Below, piece by piece: positions 33,064 to 53,099 of a DNA stretch of 64,000 nt. Each line of letters begins with the position of its first letter. The stretch's first letter is position 1. Under the pieces are notes generated by a model. The model was given only the letters and a program-made list of their open reading frames with translations. It made no database searches and was not told the DNA's origin. The position numbers and the translations under genes were made by a program. This DNA is from a virus. Location: positions 62,001-126,000 of IMG/VR virus record IMGVR_UViG_3300032224_000591. The stretch is one strand, 5' to 3'.

Positions 33064-33263
33064 GCCGATTTGAATGGGACTGGTTTATTGGATGGACATG
33101 CGCGACAGTTACAATTTTAGGGATTGTAACTGCAATTTATTTTGGTGTTCAGGATACTAACGCTAAGTATTATGCATCTATGGATAAGTGCACTACTGCT
33201 GGTGGTTCATTTATTCCTCAGAGTCAAGGTAGCGCAATTTGTATGATGGGAGTTAAGCAATGA
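33060..33263 (+). CDS. Small membrane protein
   Basis: 67 residues with one transmembrane segment (about 8-30, WFIGWTCATVTILGIVTAIYF) and two Cys in the exported or C-terminal part. ATGA overlaps with both neighbours. Unknown role. Confidence 0.55.
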   Translation: MSRFEWDWFIGWTCATVTILGIVTAIYFGVQDTNAKYYASMDKCTTAGGSFIPQSQGSAICMMGVKQ

Positions 33264-33658
33264 GTCGTGATTGGGTAAGAGACATCTTTACGATGCATAG
33301 CCATTATAAGCAACATAATGCTTTTGATAATATGGACAAGGAGAAGCTACAGAAGTTTCTTGAGTTCCGTATCAACTTCCTTCAGGAAGAACTTGATGAG
33401 ATGAAGAATGCTAAGAATGCGGACAATGTTGTGGATGCTCTTATTGATCTATGTGTGGTGGCTATCGGCACACTTGATGCGTATAATGTAGATGCATACA
33501 AAGCATGGGATGAAGTCCTGGATGCTAATATGAAGAAGGAAGTTGGTATCAAGGAAGGTCGACCTAATCCTCTTGGATTGCCTGACCTAATGAAGCCAGC
33601 TGGTTGGACTGCACCCTCACACATTGGCAATGAAGGCAAACTTAAAGAGATCTTCTAA
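33260..33658 (+). CDS. MazG-like NTP pyrophosphohydrolase
   Basis: 132 residues, all-alpha. FLQEELDEMKNA near 32 and VVDALIDLCVVAIGT near 56 give the ExxE...D metal site of the MazG/PRA-PH family. Hydrolyses (d)NTPs to monophosphates, which suits the nucleotide-modification genes downstream, where it could remove unmodified nucleotides. Single-domain size as in phage members. Confidence 0.7.
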   Translation: MSRDWVRDIFTMHSHYKQHNAFDNMDKEKLQKFLEFRINFLQEELDEMKNAKNADNVVDALIDLCVVAIGTLDAYNVDAYKAWDEVLDANMKKEVGIKEGRPNPLGLPDLMKPAGWTAPSHIGNEGKLKEIF

Positions 33659-34261: not shown

Positions 34262-34618
34262 ATGGCAATTCTTGGACCTGGAATCGAGCGTACTTCTGTA
34301 ACCGTTCTTCGTGAGTGTATGGATCTTCAAATCAAGAAGTCCCAAGACTATCAGAACCCTAACTCGAATGTAGTGCAGGCAATGCACTATCGTCGTGGCA
34401 TTGACTCTATCCATGATATTATGCAAGGCAAGATGTATCGCGCACAGTCGTTGCTTGAGTCGGGTCGTGCTGAGGTTGCTAACTTTGAATCCCTTGAAGA
34501 TACCTATAAAGACCTGATCAACTATGCTTCATTCGCCGTTGCATGGTTGCGCGGTGGTATCGAAGGTCAGCAACCTGGCTATGACATCTTTAATAAGAAG
34601 ATCGGGCCGAAAGAATGA
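34262..34618 (+). CDS. DUF1599-like (nucleotide-modification-associated) protein
   Basis: 118 residues. KKSQDYQNPNSNV near 24, RGIDSIHDIMQGKMYRAQSLLESG in the middle and ESLEDTYKDLINYASFAVAW near 78 match the small helical DUF1599 family linked in the literature to phage base modification. Immediately upstream of, and overlapping, the hydroxymethylase-like gene. Confidence 0.65.
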   Translation: MAILGPGIERTSVTVLRECMDLQIKKSQDYQNPNSNVVQAMHYRRGIDSIHDIMQGKMYRAQSLLESGRAEVANFESLEDTYKDLINYASFAVAWLRGGIEGQQPGYDIFNKKIGPKE

Positions 34619-35292
34619 TTCGTCGTAACTATGTTGAACAGATCCGTGAAGAGTTCCGCTACCTAAAGCAGCAAGGACTCTATATCACTGATAAGACTGG
34701 TGTTAAGATGCTCGAGATTCGAGGTGCATCATTTGTTGCTGATGCACCTGCAATCTTTGGTACAGTCAACCAGGACTATGTCGATCGTGAGCTCGCATGG
34801 TATCAATCCATGTCACTGAATGTGTTTGATATTCCCGGTGGTCCTCCTGCTATCTGGAAGCAGGTAGGTGATAAAGAAGGCTTTATCAACTCCAACTATG
34901 GTTGGGCTATCTGGTCTGGTCAAAACGAATATCAGTATGAGAACGTGTTGTGTGAACTCCTGAAGAACCATGAGTCACGTCGCGCGACCATGATCTATAC
35001 ACGACCGACCATGTGGACAGACTACAACAAGAATGGTCGTAGTGATTTTATGTGTACTAACGCTGTACAGTATATGATTCGTTATGGTAAGCTTGAAGCG
35101 GTAGTTCAGATGCGTTCGAACGATGTTGTGTTTGGTTATAAGAATGACTATGCATGGCAGAAGCATGTGCTTGATACTCTTGCTACCGACCTATCAGAAG
35201 CTGAAGGTGGTATTGATGTAGTGCCAGGTACGATTCATTGGAATGTTGGGAGCTTGCACGTATATGAGAGACACTTTAATCTCATTGACTAG
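34615..35292 (+). CDS. Thymidylate-synthase-family enzyme, probable dCMP hydroxymethylase
   Basis: 225 residues; T4 gp42 is 246. Catalytic Cys in DFMCTNAVQY near 144 and phosphate/substrate loop MRSNDVVFGYKNDYAWQ near 164. Counting from the Gly of that loop, Asp stands where thymidylate synthases have the dUMP-specifying Asn; T4 dCMP hydroxymethylase (GFPYD) has Asp there too. This suggests dCMP, converted to hydroxymethyl-dCMP with methylene-THF. dUMP as substrate cannot be excluded without biochemistry. Confidence 0.75.
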   Translation: MIRRNYVEQIREEFRYLKQQGLYITDKTGVKMLEIRGASFVADAPAIFGTVNQDYVDRELAWYQSMSLNVFDIPGGPPAIWKQVGDKEGFINSNYGWAIWSGQNEYQYENVLCELLKNHESRRATMIYTRPTMWTDYNKNGRSDFMCTNAVQYMIRYGKLEAVVQMRSNDVVFGYKNDYAWQKHVLDTLATDLSEAEGGIDVVPGTIHWNVGSLHVYERHFNLID

Positions 35293-35782
35293 ATGGGACT
35301 ATCGATACCTCAACCTAGCTAAAGAGGTATCGACTTGGTCCAAAGATCCTAGTACTCAAGTTGGTGCTGTTATAGTCGGTGATAAGGGTCAAATCTTATC
35401 ACAGGGCTATAACGGCTTTCCTCGTGGTATTAAGGATAGTAAGAATCGCCTGAACGATCGACCAACTAAGTTAAAGCTGGTCGTTCATGCTGAGATGAAC
35501 TGTATCTATAATGCTTCATTCTCTGGTGTATCGCTGGAGAACTCAACCGTATATGTGCATGGATTGCCTGTATGCTCTGAATGTGCCAAGGGTGTTATCC
35601 AAGTTGGCATTAAACGCGTGATCATGTGTTACCCAATCGATATAGATGACAAGTGGAAAGATGCATTTGATGACACACAAAGAATGTTTGACGAAGCCGA
35701 CATCTCGTATACGAGTCTTAGTAGTGGGTATAAATCCAAGCAAGGGCTCAACGCGATCGAAGACTTTAGATCGACTATCTAA
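35264..35782 (+). CDS. cd: dCMP deaminase
   Basis: 172 residues from ATG 35264; T4 Cd is 193. Zinc site HAE in VVHAEMNC near 71 and PVCSEC near 97; N-terminal SKDPSTQVGAVIV is typical. Makes dUMP from dCMP. It overlaps the hydroxymethylase gene by 29 nt. Confidence 0.9.
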   Translation: MRDTLISLTRWDYRYLNLAKEVSTWSKDPSTQVGAVIVGDKGQILSQGYNGFPRGIKDSKNRLNDRPTKLKLVVHAEMNCIYNASFSGVSLENSTVYVHGLPVCSECAKGVIQVGIKRVIMCYPIDIDDKWKDAFDDTQRMFDEADISYTSLSSGYKSKQGLNAIEDFRSTI

Positions 35783-36080
35783 ATGGGCTGAGAAGCTTGG
35801 TATCGAGTACTTCTCATTTGTCAACTGCGTACACATAACAGGTGTGTACAAACCGGTTGATATAGATTATAATACACTTATGGATTGTGCACAACTGCAT
35901 GATAAAGTGCTTGCGCTAGGTAACTTCCCGTCTCGTGCGTTGGAGATACTTGGTATCGAGCACTTTGTGCTGCCTCATCCGTCCGGACTAAATAGAAAAC
36001 TAAATGATCCGGAGTATGAGAAGCAGAAACTAAGTGAGGCTAAGAGGTACATTGATGGAAACCACAGAGTATTACGATGA
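35670..36080 (+). CDS. Uracil-DNA-glycosylase-superfamily protein
   Basis: About 136 residues. VLVVGINPSKG (GxNP motif) and LPHPSGLNRKL (HPSxxN motif) are the two ends of the UDG fold active site; LALGNFPSRALEIL lies between. Overlaps dCMP deaminase by about 113 nt. ATG 35670 has GGAAAG 9 nt upstream, while 35646 is also open, so the start is uncertain. In a phage that may carry modified pyrimidines it could be a base-binding or modifying relative rather than a repair enzyme. Confidence 0.6.
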   Translation: MTHKECLTKPTSRIRVLVVGINPSKGSTRSKTLDRLSKWAEKLGIEYFSFVNCVHITGVYKPVDIDYNTLMDCAQLHDKVLALGNFPSRALEILGIEHFVLPHPSGLNRKLNDPEYEKQKLSEAKRYIDGNHRVLR

Positions 36081-37200
36081 GTACCTGCGTTACTTCACTC
36101 TGGCTAAGACACAACAAGAGAGATGCAATCTCGGGTCTATCCCCTATCTTGAATCGAGAATGGGCGACGACCTCCTCGAGCATGTTGAACTCTACGATGT
36201 TGTCGAGCGAAAGTTTGCTGGATTTTCGCAAATCATGCATGACTGCTACCATGGATGGACACCCTCCCACCCATACTGGACAAAGATGGAAAGAGGCATC
36301 CACTCTCGATACAGAGAAGTTGTAGCAAAGAACTGGACAGGCAAGCATAGTGATTTTGGACTAGCTGAGTGGCTTTATGTTTTCATCGTTCATCGTGTTA
36401 CCGGTTCAGGCATTAATTATGCTGTGAAGCCATCTGGCTATCACAACAGTATCCTATTCTCTTTGCATGAGTCAAAGACGATTGAGGATATGGTGAAGAT
36501 TATTAAGAACTATCAGTTCCCATTCTATACATCTGTAGGTTACCAGTTCCCTCAGTTTCCAAAGCCTGAGGGTGGCTACAAGAAGGGTGGCGACTACTAT
36601 CTTGGTGAGTTCGCACCCCGCCTCGCACGTGATTTGGCTGACTTCCTTGAGAAAGGTCGTGGGCGTGATCTTCGTGAGATTGGTAGTTTCATGCTCAATT
36701 GGAATACACGTAATGGGTTAAAGCAGTATCACTTTCAGTATGCGGCTATTGTTGCAGACATTGCTGATTGGTACCCATGCTATGTGAACCCACGCAGTCC
36801 ATTCTATTATGGATCAAATGCCAAAGAGTGTATCTCATATCTTGCTATCAACACACAAAAGAAAAAGCAGATCGACTTCCTTGATGACGTGATGGAACGC
36901 ATCTATGAGGATACCAACTCTTTTCCATATAATGCCGAGGACGTATGTTGTGACTTCATTCGTTGGGTTGAGAACTTTGTTAAGCCGGGTGCTTCCTATG
37001 ACCACCTTGATCGCGATGCTATCTGGTCATCCTGTAGAATCAAGGATCACCCGTTTGGCAGACAAAGGGCGATGCTTCAACTTGGTCTGGTTGATTCGTT
37101 CAACAACATGAATCATCATCCATCTGATAGCTATGTATTAGATATGAATGGCATCAGCGTGGTAGAGTACAAGAGGAAAGTAAACGAACTTGTCGCATGA
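36055..37200 (+). CDS. Putative amino-acid:DNA transferase (aGPT-pyrophosphorylase-like)
   Basis: 381 residues from ATG 36055, which has AAGAGG at good spacing. EWLYVFIVHRVTGSGINYAVKPSGYHNSI near 105 and NPRSPFYYGSNAKECISYL near 242 resemble the alpha-glutamyl/putrescinyl-thymine pyrophosphorylase family of hypermodified-base phages. These enzymes replace a pyrophosphate on hydroxymethyl-pyrimidine DNA with an amine or amino acid. It is flanked by hydroxymethylase and PLP-enzyme genes, as in known hypermodification clusters. Assignment is from memory of family patterns; moderate. Confidence 0.5.
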   Translation: METTEYYDEYLRYFTLAKTQQERCNLGSIPYLESRMGDDLLEHVELYDVVERKFAGFSQIMHDCYHGWTPSHPYWTKMERGIHSRYREVVAKNWTGKHSDFGLAEWLYVFIVHRVTGSGINYAVKPSGYHNSILFSLHESKTIEDMVKIIKNYQFPFYTSVGYQFPQFPKPEGGYKKGGDYYLGEFAPRLARDLADFLEKGRGRDLREIGSFMLNWNTRNGLKQYHFQYAAIVADIADWYPCYVNPRSPFYYGSNAKECISYLAINTQKKKQIDFLDDVMERIYEDTNSFPYNAEDVCCDFIRWVENFVKPGASYDHLDRDAIWSSCRIKDHPFGRQRAMLQLGLVDSFNNMNHHPSDSYVLDMNGISVVEYKRKVNELVA

Positions 37201-38092
37201 TTATCACGTACTAGATGGACATAATAAAGACTTACGCATGATGGATTGGGAGCAAGCGAAGGAGTATTATCTTTCGCTTACAGCTGGTTGGACTCCATAC
37301 AATCCTGACCCAGTTGTGATCGAACATGAGGGTGTTCGAGTAGTTAGAGATGACCTGATCGTTGGTACGAAAACTCGTGCCGGCGATCTTCTAGCTGCTA
37401 AAACAAACTACAAGACGTTGGTGTACGTACAGCCACGAACTGGATTGGCTGGTGTATCACTAAACGAGGTTGCGCGTATACATAACAAGGATGTTGTGTT
37501 ATTCATGCCTTCATCGAAGCGTATCTCCCTGCATCAGGCGTGTTGCATTGAGCAAGGTGCAAAACCTATCTTCGAACGTATCGCTGCAATGCCTATTCTA
37601 AATATTATGGCTAAAGAGTGGGCAGAGAAGAATGATGCTTTCTTCATCCCACTCGGTTTGAAGCATGAGCTTGCAACTGCTGGTATCGTGCACGCTGCAA
37701 GTAAGATCGATCCACCCGATGAGGTATATGTAGCCATATCAACAGGTGTTCTATCACGTGCTCTGCAGATTGCTTGGCCTAAAGCTAAGTTTCATTGTGT
37801 TGCAGTATCACGTAACTTAAAGGCCGGTGAACTTGGTAGAGCTGAGGTTATCTCTGATCCTCTTGCGTTTCAAACACCAGAACCATATCTTCCACCTTTC
37901 CCAACAGTTGCAACGTATGATGCAAAGGTGTGGAAGTATATCCCGAAGAACACAGGTCGTAACATCCTAATGTGGAACGTTGGGACCGAGCCTGTACTAA
38001 AAGATGAGACGATCTATGATCGCGTAGATTCATATCGTGATTGGAAAAAGAATGAAAGCACTCGTAGTAACTCCCTTCACTCCTTTATCTAA
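37190..38092 (+). CDS. PLP-dependent enzyme, fold type II (tryptophan-synthase-beta-like)
   Basis: 300 residues from a TTG start with AGAGGAAAG upstream; an in-frame ATG at 37238 has no ribosome site. GTKTRAGDLL near 65 supplies the Schiff-base Lys in the K.R.gdLl context of ACC-deaminase/cysteine-synthase relatives. VYVAISTGVLSRALQIAW near 184 looks like the phosphate-binding Gly-rich region. Related PLP enzymes act on amino acids attached to phage DNA bases. It overlaps the transferase gene by 11 nt. Confidence 0.6.
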   Translation: MSHDYHVLDGHNKDLRMMDWEQAKEYYLSLTAGWTPYNPDPVVIEHEGVRVVRDDLIVGTKTRAGDLLAAKTNYKTLVYVQPRTGLAGVSLNEVARIHNKDVVLFMPSSKRISLHQACCIEQGAKPIFERIAAMPILNIMAKEWAEKNDAFFIPLGLKHELATAGIVHAASKIDPPDEVYVAISTGVLSRALQIAWPKAKFHCVAVSRNLKAGELGRAEVISDPLAFQTPEPYLPPFPTVATYDAKVWKYIPKNTGRNILMWNVGTEPVLKDETIYDRVDSYRDWKKNESTRSNSLHSFI

Positions 38093-39101
38093 GAACTTAG
38101 CATCGCATCGCTCTGCACAAGGAGCGATCTATGCTGATCAGCTTGAGTTCTCAGGTATCAATATCGATCTAGCTATGACCGGCAATATTCCTGATGATTA
38201 CAATGAGTATGACGCTCTGTATGTCTATCATGGTAATGATTGGGGTGGCACACTCAATATGTTTGGTGGCGTCAAGAATTATGCTAACATTGATAGTGTA
38301 ATAAAGATGTCAAAATTCAAGAAAAGGGTGTATAGTATAGGTATTGAATATCCTGACTATCATGGTATGCTACGCACTAGACTTGATAAAACACCTGATG
38401 CACATCCTGACTGGAACCTGGTTGATTGGGAAGGCTTGAACATCATCAAACATCGTAGCACAGTCATGAATCCTAATGACCTGTTCCATGACTATCCTGC
38501 GATCGCTGTTGGCGACTCGCACGCTATTAGTTTGTACCGTCCTGGTTGGTTAAATGTGTCTGTACCTTTCAAGACACTACATGGTGCATTGAGCGCTGGA
38601 CTTGAGTCCTTCCTGCCTAAGGATCAAAAGTTTACAGAGATCGACTTCTACTTTGGCAACATCGATATTCGTCATCATCTTTGTAGGTTCCCCGATCCTG
38701 TTGCATCAACGCTCAAGCTCGTCAGCACATACGTAAAACAGGCTAACATGCTAGCTGAGAAGTATGATGCAACTGTAAATCTATATGAGCCATTGCCTAT
38801 TGAGAATGAGTCACGTAAGATTCCTCAGACTGGCTACTACAAAGGTAAGCCATTCCATGGTACATGGGAAGAGCGTGAACGTGTTCGTCTTTGGTTTAGA
38901 TCACATCTACAAATGGAAGCCGCAAATACCAAGCGCGTCTGGATTAAGAGATGGGTTGATGGATTCAAGAATGAAGCTGGTGAGTTAGACTTTAAGTATA
39001 TGGAGAAGCCACAGTCAGTGCATCTATCGCGTGAGTATTATCCTTATTGGCAGGGATTGAAGTGGAATGGGATTTCATCATTGAAAGGATTTATGGAATG
39101 A
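38052..39101 (+). CDS. Hypothetical protein with GDSH motif (SGNH-hydrolase-like?)
   Basis: 349 residues from ATG 38052; overlaps the PLP-enzyme gene by 41 nt. AIAVGDSHAISLYRPGW near 155 and DFYFGNIDIRHHLCR near 204 recall blocks I and III of SGNH hydrolases/acyltransferases. If so it could acylate or deacylate the modified base, but the family is not certain. Same operon as the putative hypermodification genes. Confidence 0.45.
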   Translation: MKALVVTPFTPLSKNLASHRSAQGAIYADQLEFSGINIDLAMTGNIPDDYNEYDALYVYHGNDWGGTLNMFGGVKNYANIDSVIKMSKFKKRVYSIGIEYPDYHGMLRTRLDKTPDAHPDWNLVDWEGLNIIKHRSTVMNPNDLFHDYPAIAVGDSHAISLYRPGWLNVSVPFKTLHGALSAGLESFLPKDQKFTEIDFYFGNIDIRHHLCRFPDPVASTLKLVSTYVKQANMLAEKYDATVNLYEPLPIENESRKIPQTGYYKGKPFHGTWEERERVRLWFRSHLQMEAANTKRVWIKRWVDGFKNEAGELDFKYMEKPQSVHLSREYYPYWQGLKWNGISSLKGFME

Positions 39102-39445
39102 ATTCTGACGACCTAAAATATTTGGAAAATATAAAATATTTGGAAAATGTTATGAATAAATTGGATGAGAAGAATATTAAATACAAGTTTAATGAAGAGC
39201 AACTCGTTGCAGAACTGAAGGCATATATAGATGGTACCTACACATCTCATTATGTTGGCACTGACAACGTCCAGGCATTCGAGCTTATTGCAGCCGCAGG
39301 CCATGGAATGGGATTCACAATTGGCGACATTATTAAGTACGCTTCTCGCTACGGCAAGAAGGGTGGTCGCAACCGCCAAGATCTTTTGAAGATCCTTCAC
39401 TATACTATTTTAGCACTGTACGTGCATGACAAGGAGACTAAGTAA
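39098..39445 (+). CDS. DUF3310-like small protein
   Basis: 115 residues from ATG 39098 (ATGA overlap). The second half, QAFELIAAAGHGMGFTIGDIIKYASRYGKKGGRNRQDLLKILHY, is the phage DUF3310 nucleotide-kinase-associated pattern. The N-terminus contains a tandem KYLEN(I/V) repeat encoded by an AT-rich 18-nt DNA repeat at about 39115-39150. Confidence 0.6.
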   Translation: MNSDDLKYLENIKYLENVMNKLDEKNIKYKFNEEQLVAELKAYIDGTYTSHYVGTDNVQAFELIAAAGHGMGFTIGDIIKYASRYGKKGGRNRQDLLKILHYTILALYVHDKETK

Positions 39446-40440
39446 TGGAAATTAAGTTTGAGTTCGACAAGCTTCAGAAGCAGAAGCTATTTGTCGCCAC
39501 TCCTATGTATGGTGGTGCTTGCGCTGGTATGTTTACCAAGTCATGTACCGACCTTTCAGCGTTCTGTGCTGCTCATAACATCCCGCTGCAGTTCTACTTC
39601 CTGTTCAACGAGTCGCTGATCACACGCGCACGTAACTACTGTGTAGACGAGTTCATGCGTTCGGGTGCTGACCATCTGATGTTCATTGACTCTGACATTG
39701 GGTTCAATGCTCAGGACATTATCGCCATGATGGTGATGCAGGGCAATGAGCCTGAAAAATACCAAATCATTGGTGGACCGTATCCTAAGAAGTGCATCTC
39801 ATGGGAGAAGATCAAGAAGGCTGTCGATAAGGGCGTAGCTGATACAGATCCGAACGTCCTTGAGCGCTTTGTTGGTGACTATGTCTTCAACCCTAAGGGT
39901 GGTTCACAGACTATTCAGATCAGCGAGCCATGCGAAGTTCTTGAGATTGGCACTGGCTTTATGATGGTTCATCGTACTGCCATGCAAAAGTTCTATGATA
40001 CTTTCCCGCAGTATATGTACAAGCCTGATCATGTTCGTACTGAACACTTTGATGGTACTCGTGAGATCATGCAGGCCTTCCAGGCTGAAGTCGATCAGCT
40101 TGACTTTAAGTCATACTACGAGCAGGAGATGAAGCGCGTCTCTGAGATGAAGCTTAATGATCCTGAAGCTATTCAGGCTGAAATTGAGAAGGTGCTTGCT
40201 ACTGCGCAAGAAATCAATAGCAAGAAGTCAAAGCGTTATCTGTCTGAAGACTACTGGTTCTGTCAGAAGGCACAGGAAGCTAACATTAAAACCTGGTTCT
40301 GCCCATGGATGCGTCTGCAGCATGTTGGCAGCTATATCTTCGGTGGCTCATTAGCCGATCTTGCAGCTATTGGTGCATCTGCTACCGCTGATCCAAGCGC
40401 GCTTGGAAAAACTAAAGTGAATCGCAAGCCTGAGCGATAA
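39445..40440 (+). CDS. GT-A-type glycosyltransferase
   Basis: 331 residues. Opens with VATPMYGGACAGMF; NESLITRARNYCVDEFM near 54 and the metal-binding DSD in HLMFIDSDIGF near 82 define a family-2-like nucleotide-sugar transferase. Acidic helical insert at 205-265. Its place at the end of the modification block makes glycosylation of a modified base a candidate role; cell-surface or capsid glycosylation is an alternative. Confidence 0.65.
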   Translation: MEIKFEFDKLQKQKLFVATPMYGGACAGMFTKSCTDLSAFCAAHNIPLQFYFLFNESLITRARNYCVDEFMRSGADHLMFIDSDIGFNAQDIIAMMVMQGNEPEKYQIIGGPYPKKCISWEKIKKAVDKGVADTDPNVLERFVGDYVFNPKGGSQTIQISEPCEVLEIGTGFMMVHRTAMQKFYDTFPQYMYKPDHVRTEHFDGTREIMQAFQAEVDQLDFKSYYEQEMKRVSEMKLNDPEAIQAEIEKVLATAQEINSKKSKRYLSEDYWFCQKAQEANIKTWFCPWMRLQHVGSYIFGGSLADLAAIGASATADPSALGKTKVNRKPER

Positions 40441-48242: not shown

Positions 48243-49190
48243 ATGAAACCTATTGCAGTATTTTGTAAAGATCCTGAACTATCTGTCTATTGGACTCTTA
48301 CAGATTTCTGTAATTTTAGTTGTAACTACTGTCCAGCTTTTCTTCATAGTGGCGAATATCATAAAGGTATATCCAAGGGTTTTCCAACAGATGAACAGAT
48401 AATTTCTTTTGTTGATAAATTAGAAGAGTTGTCTAAAACTAGAAAGCTTGAGGTTACACTAAGCGGTGGAGAGCCTACTCTTCATCCTATGTTACCCTAT
48501 ATCATAGATAGACTACGGGGCAAATGCATATTATGCATAACATCTAATGGTTCAAGAGGAAATAACTTTTGGAACACAATTCTTCCTGTGTCTACTGTTC
48601 AATTATCTCTTCATCCAGAGTTTACAAAAGCTAATAAAATCAATAGTCTCTCTAGAGTTATTATTGATAGTGGCACTGTTCTGAGATATAATTTATCATG
48701 TGATCCCAATAACTGGGAAAAAGTATTAGCTCTATATGATTCTATAGATGATGAGTTTAAACCTTTTATTACCCCAAGAGTTCTACAACATTGGGGTACT
48801 CAATCTGATGTAAAGCGTATATCTCTAACATATAGTCAAGAGCAATCTGCTTGGATTAAAGAGACGTTATTTAAGCATAGGCCATTGAATCCAGTAAACA
48901 AGTCTGATTATAAGATGTTTTTCTCTGATGGTTCATCTATATCAGCCCATAAAATGGGTGTTATAATAGTGAATGAATGGAATGATTTCAAAGGATGGAA
49001 ATGTTATGCTGGGTCACAATCTATCAATGCAACCTATTCAGGTGATGTGTTTGCTGGAGTGTGTGGATCAAAATTTCTAGGTAAGATTGATAATTTCGAA
49101 TTATTCAATGATCACATTATTTGTGAGAGACACCGATGTGTCTGTCTACCAGATATTAGAGCTAACAAACAATTAATCATTCCGGAATAG
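48243..49190 (+). CDS. Radical SAM protein
   Basis: 315 residues. 4Fe-4S site CNFSCNYC near residue 24, and TLSGGEPTLHP near 77 (SAM-binding GGE). The C-terminal half keeps Cys residues (WKCYAGSQ, GVCGSKF, CERHRCVC), which could hold an auxiliary cluster as in SPASM proteins. Strongly AT-rich compared with the tRNAs around it, so probably a recent insert. Its last four codons and TAG stop lie in tRNA-Gln (stop at tRNA positions 8-10). Substrate unknown; base or peptide modification are candidates. Confidence 0.8.
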   Translation: MKPIAVFCKDPELSVYWTLTDFCNFSCNYCPAFLHSGEYHKGISKGFPTDEQIISFVDKLEELSKTRKLEVTLSGGEPTLHPMLPYIIDRLRGKCILCITSNGSRGNNFWNTILPVSTVQLSLHPEFTKANKINSLSRVIIDSGTVLRYNLSCDPNNWEKVLALYDSIDDEFKPFITPRVLQHWGTQSDVKRISLTYSQEQSAWIKETLFKHRPLNPVNKSDYKMFFSDGSSISAHKMGVIIVNEWNDFKGWKCYAGSQSINATYSGDVFAGVCGSKFLGKIDNFELFNDHIICERHRCVCLPDIRANKQLIIPE

Positions 49191-51988: not shown

Positions 51989-52035
51989 GACTCGTGTGGG
52001 CCACGGTTAGCCCACGACTTCAATTGGAGTTTATT

Positions 52036-52614
52036 ATGCAATTCATGAACTTATGGGCAACTCCTGTTGCCATCTTTCAAAATAGAGACTATAGAGATAT
52101 TAACGCTGAGATCCTTAAGCACGAGGAACTTAGGGGTTGCACGTTTCTTAATAAGAAGGATGTGTGGGACTATAGAGATACTGTCCCAGCCTTACAAACA
52201 CTATATGATTGGATGCTGGAATGCACGGCCAAGTACGCTGAAGAGTGTTTTGGTATGGAGTATACGCCAGAGATTTTCTATCATGGCCATGGTTCAATGA
52301 ACTTTCGTGGCAAGGGTGAAGAGGCACTTCTGCATACTCATCGCCTCACTACTGTGGTGATGACGTATTATATCGACGTCCATGACAATTGCGGCGACAT
52401 CAGACTCCTAGACCCCAGGAGCACGCTAGGTTGGATCAGCCGTAATGACGGCAGACCTTATAATCAGTACACACATAGTCCTAACAATGGTGAGCTTATC
52501 ATGTTCCCTGGTTGGGTTACACATATGGTTGCTCAGAACCAAACTGACAAGGAGCGTGTCGCTCTTACGTCAAACGTATATCTTAAGGATGAGCACAAGG
52601 ATAAAGTGTACTGA
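52036..52614 (+). CDS. 2OG-Fe(II) oxygenase-like protein
   Basis: 192 residues from ATG 52036 (TTGGAGT upstream). LLHTHRLTTVVMTYYIDV near 98 and LIMFPGWVTHMVAQN near 156 with KERVAL after it give the His pair and Arg of the TIGR02466-like oxygenases, similar in layout to 8687-9376. Overlaps the next oxygenase gene by one base. Target unknown. Confidence 0.65.
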   Translation: MQFMNLWATPVAIFQNRDYRDINAEILKHEELRGCTFLNKKDVWDYRDTVPALQTLYDWMLECTAKYAEECFGMEYTPEIFYHGHGSMNFRGKGEEALLHTHRLTTVVMTYYIDVHDNCGDIRLLDPRSTLGWISRNDGRPYNQYTHSPNNGELIMFPGWVTHMVAQNQTDKERVALTSNVYLKDEHKDKVY

Positions 52615-53099
52615 TGGATAGATTCTATGTAATTGACGATGTCTTTGACGAGCGTATTCGCCTCAAGATTCGTGACTTTGAATATGGTCCTGCATCACCA
52701 CAGAAGTGGTATGACTTGGGTTCTAATCCAGATCATGAGAAGATCTTTGACATTGCGGTCGAGCTTGGGTTTGGATTTATTCATGGCGCCGGTATCATTG
52801 GCTATGAGATGTGGTGCAACACCAGGGCTGTTGGTTGGCATTACGATCATGATGAGGTAGCCTCGCGTGAGGCTGGTAAGCTCATCACTCCTATCTTTGC
52901 TGCTGTATACTATGCCGAGGTGGCAAACCTAGAGGGTGGTGACCTAGTGACAGAGTCACATCGTATCACACCAAAGACTAATCGTCTTGTCATCATGAGC
53001 GGTGGTTTGAAGCATGCTGTGTATCCGTATGCAGGTACACGTAAGGCCATCACAATCAATCCATGGGATCATAAAATAATCAATGCGGGTGTGGTATAA
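52614..53099 (+). CDS. 2OG-Fe(II) oxygenase (prolyl-4-hydroxylase-like)
   Basis: 161 residues. WHYDHDE near 81 (HxD), GGDLVTESHRITP near 108, then GGLKHAVYPYAGTRKAI near 130 (distal His, 2OG Arg). Complete iron site. The 3' end overlaps tRNA-Gly by 15 nt, with TAA at tRNA positions 13-15. Confidence 0.72.
   Translation: MDRFYVIDDVFDERIRLKIRDFEYGPASPQKWYDLGSNPDHEKIFDIAVELGFGFIHGAGIIGYEMWCNTRAVGWHYDHDEVASREAGKLITPIFAAVYYAEVANLEGGDLVTESHRITPKTNRLVIMSGGLKHAVYPYAGTRKAITINPWDHKIINAGVV

Follow-up and report, generated by a model that had tools for sequence, protein, structure and literature searches.

The hypermodified thymidine of Pseudomonas phage M6 is 5-(2-aminoethyl)dU, and in the genome of this phage the gene of a PLP enzyme follows directly after that of the amino-acid:DNA transferase (ADDT). 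The pathway of Salmonella phage ViI includes a radical SAM enzyme. On the cytosine side, the T4 beta-glucosyltransferase (BGT) acts on 5hmC in DNA. To our knowledge, hypermodification with an amino acid starting from a hydroxymethylated base has been described for thymine only. In the known thymidine systems a DNA kinase phosphorylates 5hmdU in DNA before further transfer (PMC6449724), and a carboxymethylcytosine-glycine system, CmoX/CmoY, has been described for Synechococcus phage S-B43 (PMC12783734).

Here, a 64,000-nt window (positions 62,001-126,000 of the IMG/VR record IMGVR_UViG_3300032224_000591) was analysed; coordinates refer to this window unless a locus is named. The contig belongs to an uncultivated T4-like virus, comprises 167,756 bp and carries, among other T4-like genes, those of a gp43-like polymerase and a late sigma factor. 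The only matches in the genome collection searched were four contigs, which fall in MAGs of unrelated phyla, and therefore no host is indicated. We propose, with a probability of roughly 60%, that the region 34262-39101 is a module that hypermodifies 5hmC post-replicatively, adding a group derived from an amino acid, and that in this module three proteins, here called A, P and G, take part and G acts on 5hmC itself. If this is true, a cytosine counterpart of the thymine systems is present in at least 212 IMG/VR loci and in no searched phage record, which would amount to an extensive kind of DNA chemistry that has so far escaped notice, and a BGT-like/SGNH protein would be able to enter base hypermodification.

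Gene organization and selection

The compact run of nine genes reported in the preliminary description of this DNA was confirmed, with all nine ORFs on the plus strand between 34262 and 40440. With the starts placed at 36055 and 38052, following the relatives, successive ORFs overlap by 4, 50, 137, 26, 11, 41, 55 and 1 nt, so that the range of 4-113 nt given earlier was slightly off. This gene order was found again in more than 100 IMG/VR loci and thus is not due to chance. In comparison with one close relative (L001), dN/dS was 0.12 for the hydroxymethylase, 0.07 for A, 0.04 for the PLP enzyme P, 0.08 for the GDSH protein G, 0.20 for the dCMP deaminase and, outside the overlap, 0.15 for the UDG-like gene. 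The module genes are under purifying selection (0.04-0.20), and these values mark them as functioning genes, the overlapping ones included.

The assignments made earlier for DUF1599, the ThyA/hydroxymethylase, the dCMP deaminase and DUF3310 were backed by Pfam and PHROGs. DUF1599 (nucleotide modification associated domain 1; 34262-34618; PF07659, E=5e-7) is the usual first gene of the module and occurs in 36 of the 42 distinct relatives with 5 kb of sequence upstream of A. The dCMP deaminase (35243-35782; PF00383, E=3e-19) and the UDG-superfamily-like protein (35646-36080; GINPS...HPSGLNR) are optional members, present in 21 and 20 of these relatives, respectively; for the latter, the superfamily name is supported, with a weak Pfam match below the cut-off (PF03167, E=9e-4). 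The DUF3310 protein (39047-39445; PF11753, E=2e-11) is often present and is common in other phages too. Just upstream of the run, on the same strand, a MazG-like nucleotide pyrophosphohydrolase is encoded (33260-33658; phrog_671, E=2e-19), which is a possible dCTPase substitute. Homologues of T4 gp1 and gp56 were not detected in the contig, which may be incomplete; their absence counts, though not as proof, against the proposed 5hmC module.

Hydroxymethylase of the cytosine type

The second gene (34615-35292) encodes a dCMP hydroxymethylase of the T4 gp42 type (phrog_160, E=5e-51), with 60% identity to T4 gp42 over 219 aa. The catalytic Cys ('FMCTN') and the cytosine-specifying Asp ('GYKND') of ThyA-family dCMP hydroxymethylases are both present and are kept in the relatives shown, and the ViI enzyme differs. 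The Asp, at the position that sets T4 gp42 apart within the family, occurs in every relative shown, in agreement with the cytosine type suggested previously. From its sequence, the enzyme is expected to form 5-hydroxymethyl-dCMP. The locus thus starts, like the M6 and ViI systems, from a hydroxymethylated pyrimidine, but its hydroxymethylase is of the cytosine type and not a uracil-type hydroxymethyl-dUMP synthase. A pathway on 5hmU in the style of M6 and ViI, driven by a side activity of the hydroxymethylase, would account for the presence of a dCMP deaminase and an M6-type PLP enzyme; it is nevertheless extremely improbable in view of the cytosine-type Asp in all relatives shown, the roughly half of the clusters without a detected dCMP deaminase and the 5-hmdU DNA kinase that was not found in the contig.

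Proteins A and P

The fold-type-II PLP enzyme P (37190-38092) proved to be genuinely homologous to the PLP enzyme that adjoins the M6 amino-acid:DNA transferase (hhalign E=7e-20, prob 99, 220 columns); the alignment spans the length of P, and the remaining families in the same hhalign matrix scored no better than 0.027. In PHROGs it matched phrog_7093 (E=2e-36), the match to the Pfam fold-II PLP family was weak, and the PDB matches were cysteine synthases (E=3e-4). The PLP Lys, K61, is found in 105/105 sequences.

Protein A (36055-37200) lies in an ORF that is open from 36034, and 36055 is the start in the relatives. Neither a Pfam family at E<=0.1 nor any match in PHROGs or PDB sequence searches was obtained for A; the Pfam ADDT (PF18724) and HMUDK_hel profiles did not match, hhalign against both was not significant, and the alignment with a second A-like protein, B, was suggestive only (E=0.006). 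The AF2 model of A (pLDDT 78.6, pTM 0.80) was matched by Foldseek to AADT-named proteins, aGPT-PPlase1 and the SP10 5-hmdU DNA kinase. The top match, 96% identical to A, carries a name that UniProt assigned automatically, and the best PDB match is the DNA glycosylase OGG (prob 0.84). A G-[S/T]-N-A motif is present in 99/99 sequences. Because profile methods miss the relationship, A is placed by fold, motif and context: it is predicted, by structure only, to have the amino-acid:DNA-transferase superfamily fold and is regarded as a divergent, aGPT-pyrophosphorylase-like protein and putative side-chain installer. The earlier naming of A after these families accordingly stood at the level of the fold, but not at that of sequence profiles, which placed it with neither ADDT nor HMUDK_hel. 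Taken together, the AADT/aGPT-PPlase fold of A and the homology of P connect the locus to M6/ViI thymidine hypermodification, from which it is set apart by the missing ADDT profile match, the missing 5-hmdU DNA kinase helical domain and the added protein G.

Distribution and linkage of the module genes

BLAST searches of 50,697 phage records gave no match for A, and B likewise had none in phage records; relatives of A were found in 212 IMG/VR loci. Among 67 distinct environmental virus loci, non-identical and with enough downstream sequence, 64 encode P and G behind A on one strand, and a hydroxymethylase gene lies at most 5 kb upstream of A in 37 of the 42 loci with 5 kb upstream. In one exceptional lineage the hydroxymethylase is encoded elsewhere in the genome. 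A few relatives (L052, L069) carry A and G with no recognised P, which counts against the proposed module. The gene of B is present in 40/67 loci and a C5-cytosine-methyltransferase-like gene in 14/67, 13 of them alongside B; both were searched for in the contig of the window and neither was found.

It is quite improbable that the role of A, P and G is a different one, in tRNA, cell-surface or nucleotide metabolism, and that only early-gene clustering has brought them near the hydroxymethylase. The placement of A in no DNA-modification family by profile and the richness of the window in tRNA genes would be in line with such a purpose; it is opposed by the close relationship between P and the enzyme whose gene adjoins that of ADDT in M6, by the BGT-like domain in G and by a linkage to the hydroxymethylase that is kept over many loci.

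The C5-methyltransferase-like protein of the relatives keeps the catalytic Cys and the ENAP, QxRxR and QNVP motifs, and its motif I looks degenerate. The SPPC motif of the CmoX type is absent from it in the relatives. CmoA, which might have explained this gene, was not found in the contig or in the relatives tested. The predicted module of the window and CmoX/CmoY of S-B43 are alike in that an amino acid would be placed on a C5-modified cytosine of phage DNA, but the S-B43 system relies on an amide ligase and on a carboxymethyltransferase whose substrate is carboxy-SAM (PMC12783734).

Protein G and the sister clusters

Protein G (38052-39101) is the constant core of the module. Its ORF is open from 38037, and 38052 was taken as the start, as in the relatives; the ORF from 38037 matched no Pfam family at E<=0.1. 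The PDB matches of G were 2hsj, a PAF-AH-like protein (E=4e-7), and T4 BGT 1nzd (E=2e-4), and SGNH acyltransferases such as PatB were among its structural matches. The GDSH motif noted previously thus belongs to a protein with an SGNH fold, as judged from the predicted structure (AF2, pLDDT 89.2) against the PDB. The GDS(H) Ser, the block III Gly-Asn and the block V His are all present together with the fold, and S156, H157, G202 and H324 are essentially invariant among 144 sequences. The Asp of the block V DxxH is missing, as the residue at H324-3 is not Asp, and this counts against the proposed role of G; instead, E318 is conserved.

Residues 25-113 of G aligned with residues 23-114 of the T4 beta-glucosyltransferase (hhalign E=1e-5; the other 17 families gave 0.077 or worse). 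The T4 BGT model PF09198 was the commonest Pfam match among relatives of G (14/30, best E=0.0033), and D or E occupies the position equivalent to BGT D100 in 120/144 sequences. The locus therefore shares with T4 glucosylation of 5hmC a gp42-type hydroxymethylase and, in G, a BGT-like N-terminal domain, whereas the C-terminal half of G is SGNH and not the UDP-sugar-binding half.

G was also retained in sister clusters with a conserved gene order, in which A and P are swapped for an inositol-1-phosphate synthase and an HMUDK_hel-like protein. The order in L247, L251 and L303 is DUF1599, hydroxymethylase, deaminase, UDG, [inositol-1-phosphate synthase], HMUDK_hel-like protein, G, C5-methyltransferase-like protein, DUF3310 and GT. 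The synthase (PF01658) was seen together with the HMUDK_hel-like and GDSH genes in hydroxymethylase clusters of L247, L248, L251, L255, L264, L303 and others of L246-L305. It is present in 58/61 loci with G and the HMUDK_hel-like protein and in 0/144 loci with A, counts in which part of the loci share a contig, and it was not found in the contig of the window. Among 60 IMG/VR loci with the HMUDK_hel-like protein, G is separate in 58 and fused in one. Stenotrophomonas phages and Caulobacter phage Cr30 likewise encode the synthase, but no HMUDK_hel-like protein was found in them.

ORF233c of Aeromonas phage 44RR is a fusion of G with an HMUDK_hel-like C-terminal part, which aligned with the 5-hmdU DNA kinase helical domain (hhalign E=6e-7; one relative meets the Pfam cut-off). 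Neither ORF233c nor the sister clusters have a function in the annotations examined. The 44RR and environmental clusters resemble the locus in the window in the G homologue, the hydroxymethylase and a partly identical gene order, but have an HMUDK_hel-like protein and the inositol-1-phosphate synthase instead of A and P; in 44RR the synthase was not found, and an SSF symporter gene adjoins the fusion in this cultured phage (L015:6408-10388). Since G is kept in both cluster types and in the 44RR fusion, it is the part that stays the same, and the genes that supply the group to be attached appear to be interchangeable, being either of the amino-acid type (A/P) or of the inositol type. Even apart from A and P, the pairing or fusion with the HMUDK_hel-like protein associates G with proteins that modify bases. 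From their gene content, the sister clusters suggest a cytosine modified by linkage to inositol. The shared protein G is already accessible through cultured members of the 44RR group of Aeromonas phages; the cultured Aeromonas phages 44RR and 31 both carry G.

The adjacent glycosyltransferase

The last gene of the run encodes a GT-A-like protein (39445-40440; phrog_1574, E=2e-55). Its earlier assignment to a GT-like family was confirmed, but its inclusion in the pathway was not: genes of the same family lie beside that of the gp45 sliding clamp in Sinorhizobium phage phiM12 and Stenotrophomonas phage DLP6, which have no close hydroxymethylase. As a general gp45 neighbour that also occurs in phages of this kind, the GT was ruled out as a module member and is probably outside the pathway. 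Glucosylation of 5hmC by this GT in the manner of T4, with A, P and G being peripheral, could be read from its position next to the cluster and from a weak match to the beta-glucosyl-HMC-alpha-glucosyltransferase family (E=0.02). Given the gp45 neighbourhood in phiM12 and DLP6 and the lack of a T4 BGT homologue in the contig, such glucosylation is very unlikely.

Proposed reaction sequence

For the favoured amino-acid module on 5hmC, product chemistry and step order are predicted as follows. 5hmC would enter the DNA at replication, G would recognise it there and carry out an acyl-type step on 5hmC, possibly acylating the hydroxymethyl group and thereby creating a leaving group, which would make up for the DNA kinase that was not found. 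An amino acid would then be attached by A and subsequently trimmed or rearranged by P in the fashion of M6. This would yield a bulky cytosine, probably with an amine, that shields the phage DNA from nucleases. The GT, DUF3310, dCMP deaminase and UDG would be accessory or general phage genes, and in some relatives B and the C5-methyltransferase-like gene may add further steps.

The 5-hmdU DNA kinase helical domain (PF18723), a profile that matches ViI and M6, had no match in the contig, which may be incomplete. The missing kinase, on which the preliminary description was silent, leaves a gap for the activation step. An action of G on 5hmC first is the most economical proposal because G combines a BGT-like domain with an acyl-transfer-type fold and no kinase domain was found; it is also the least certain step of the mechanism. 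Its fully specified form is a kinase-independent route to an amino-acid-derived cytosine: G would esterify the hydroxymethyl group of 5hmC in DNA with an acyl group, an amino acid would replace this ester through the action of A, and P would process the product, with an inositol-based group placed on the same activated 5hmC in the sister clusters. This form is tentative and rather doubtful. Alternatively, G could act last and O-acylate or deacylate 5hmC or the finished side chain, with A relying on a host-made activation of the hydroxymethyl group. The SGNH acyltransferases, such as PatB, among the structural matches of G speak for this order. However, G is found with different partners in the two types of cluster, as would be expected more of an early step on 5hmC common to both than of tailoring, and the base itself is the target suggested by its BGT-like domain; a late action of G is therefore unlikely.

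Further observations in the window and in related loci

The window contains 29 tRNA genes between 46567 and 61311 with an almost complete amino-acid set. Inside this array, 8 kb from the run, a radical SAM protein is encoded (48243-49190), and two neighbouring 2OG-Fe(II) oxygenase-like genes (51994-53099) also lie among the tRNA genes.

Members of the C5-methyltransferase-like family linked to hydroxymethylase clusters were located at L003:12072-13271, L011:13101-14294, L023:11986-13203 and L024:5363-6580, and members were also seen in cyanophage S-TIM5 and Pseudoalteromonas phage XG4. The latter has an unannotated cluster (L024:100-6580) with a hydroxymethylase, a nucleotidyltransferase-kinase fusion, the C5-methyltransferase-like gene and two weakly matched glycosyltransferases, and is predicted to make glycosylated 5hmC. 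In Aeromonas phage 25 (L016:5776-9047) the GDSH gene adjoins genes of a UDP-galactopyranose mutase and a putative glycosyltransferase.
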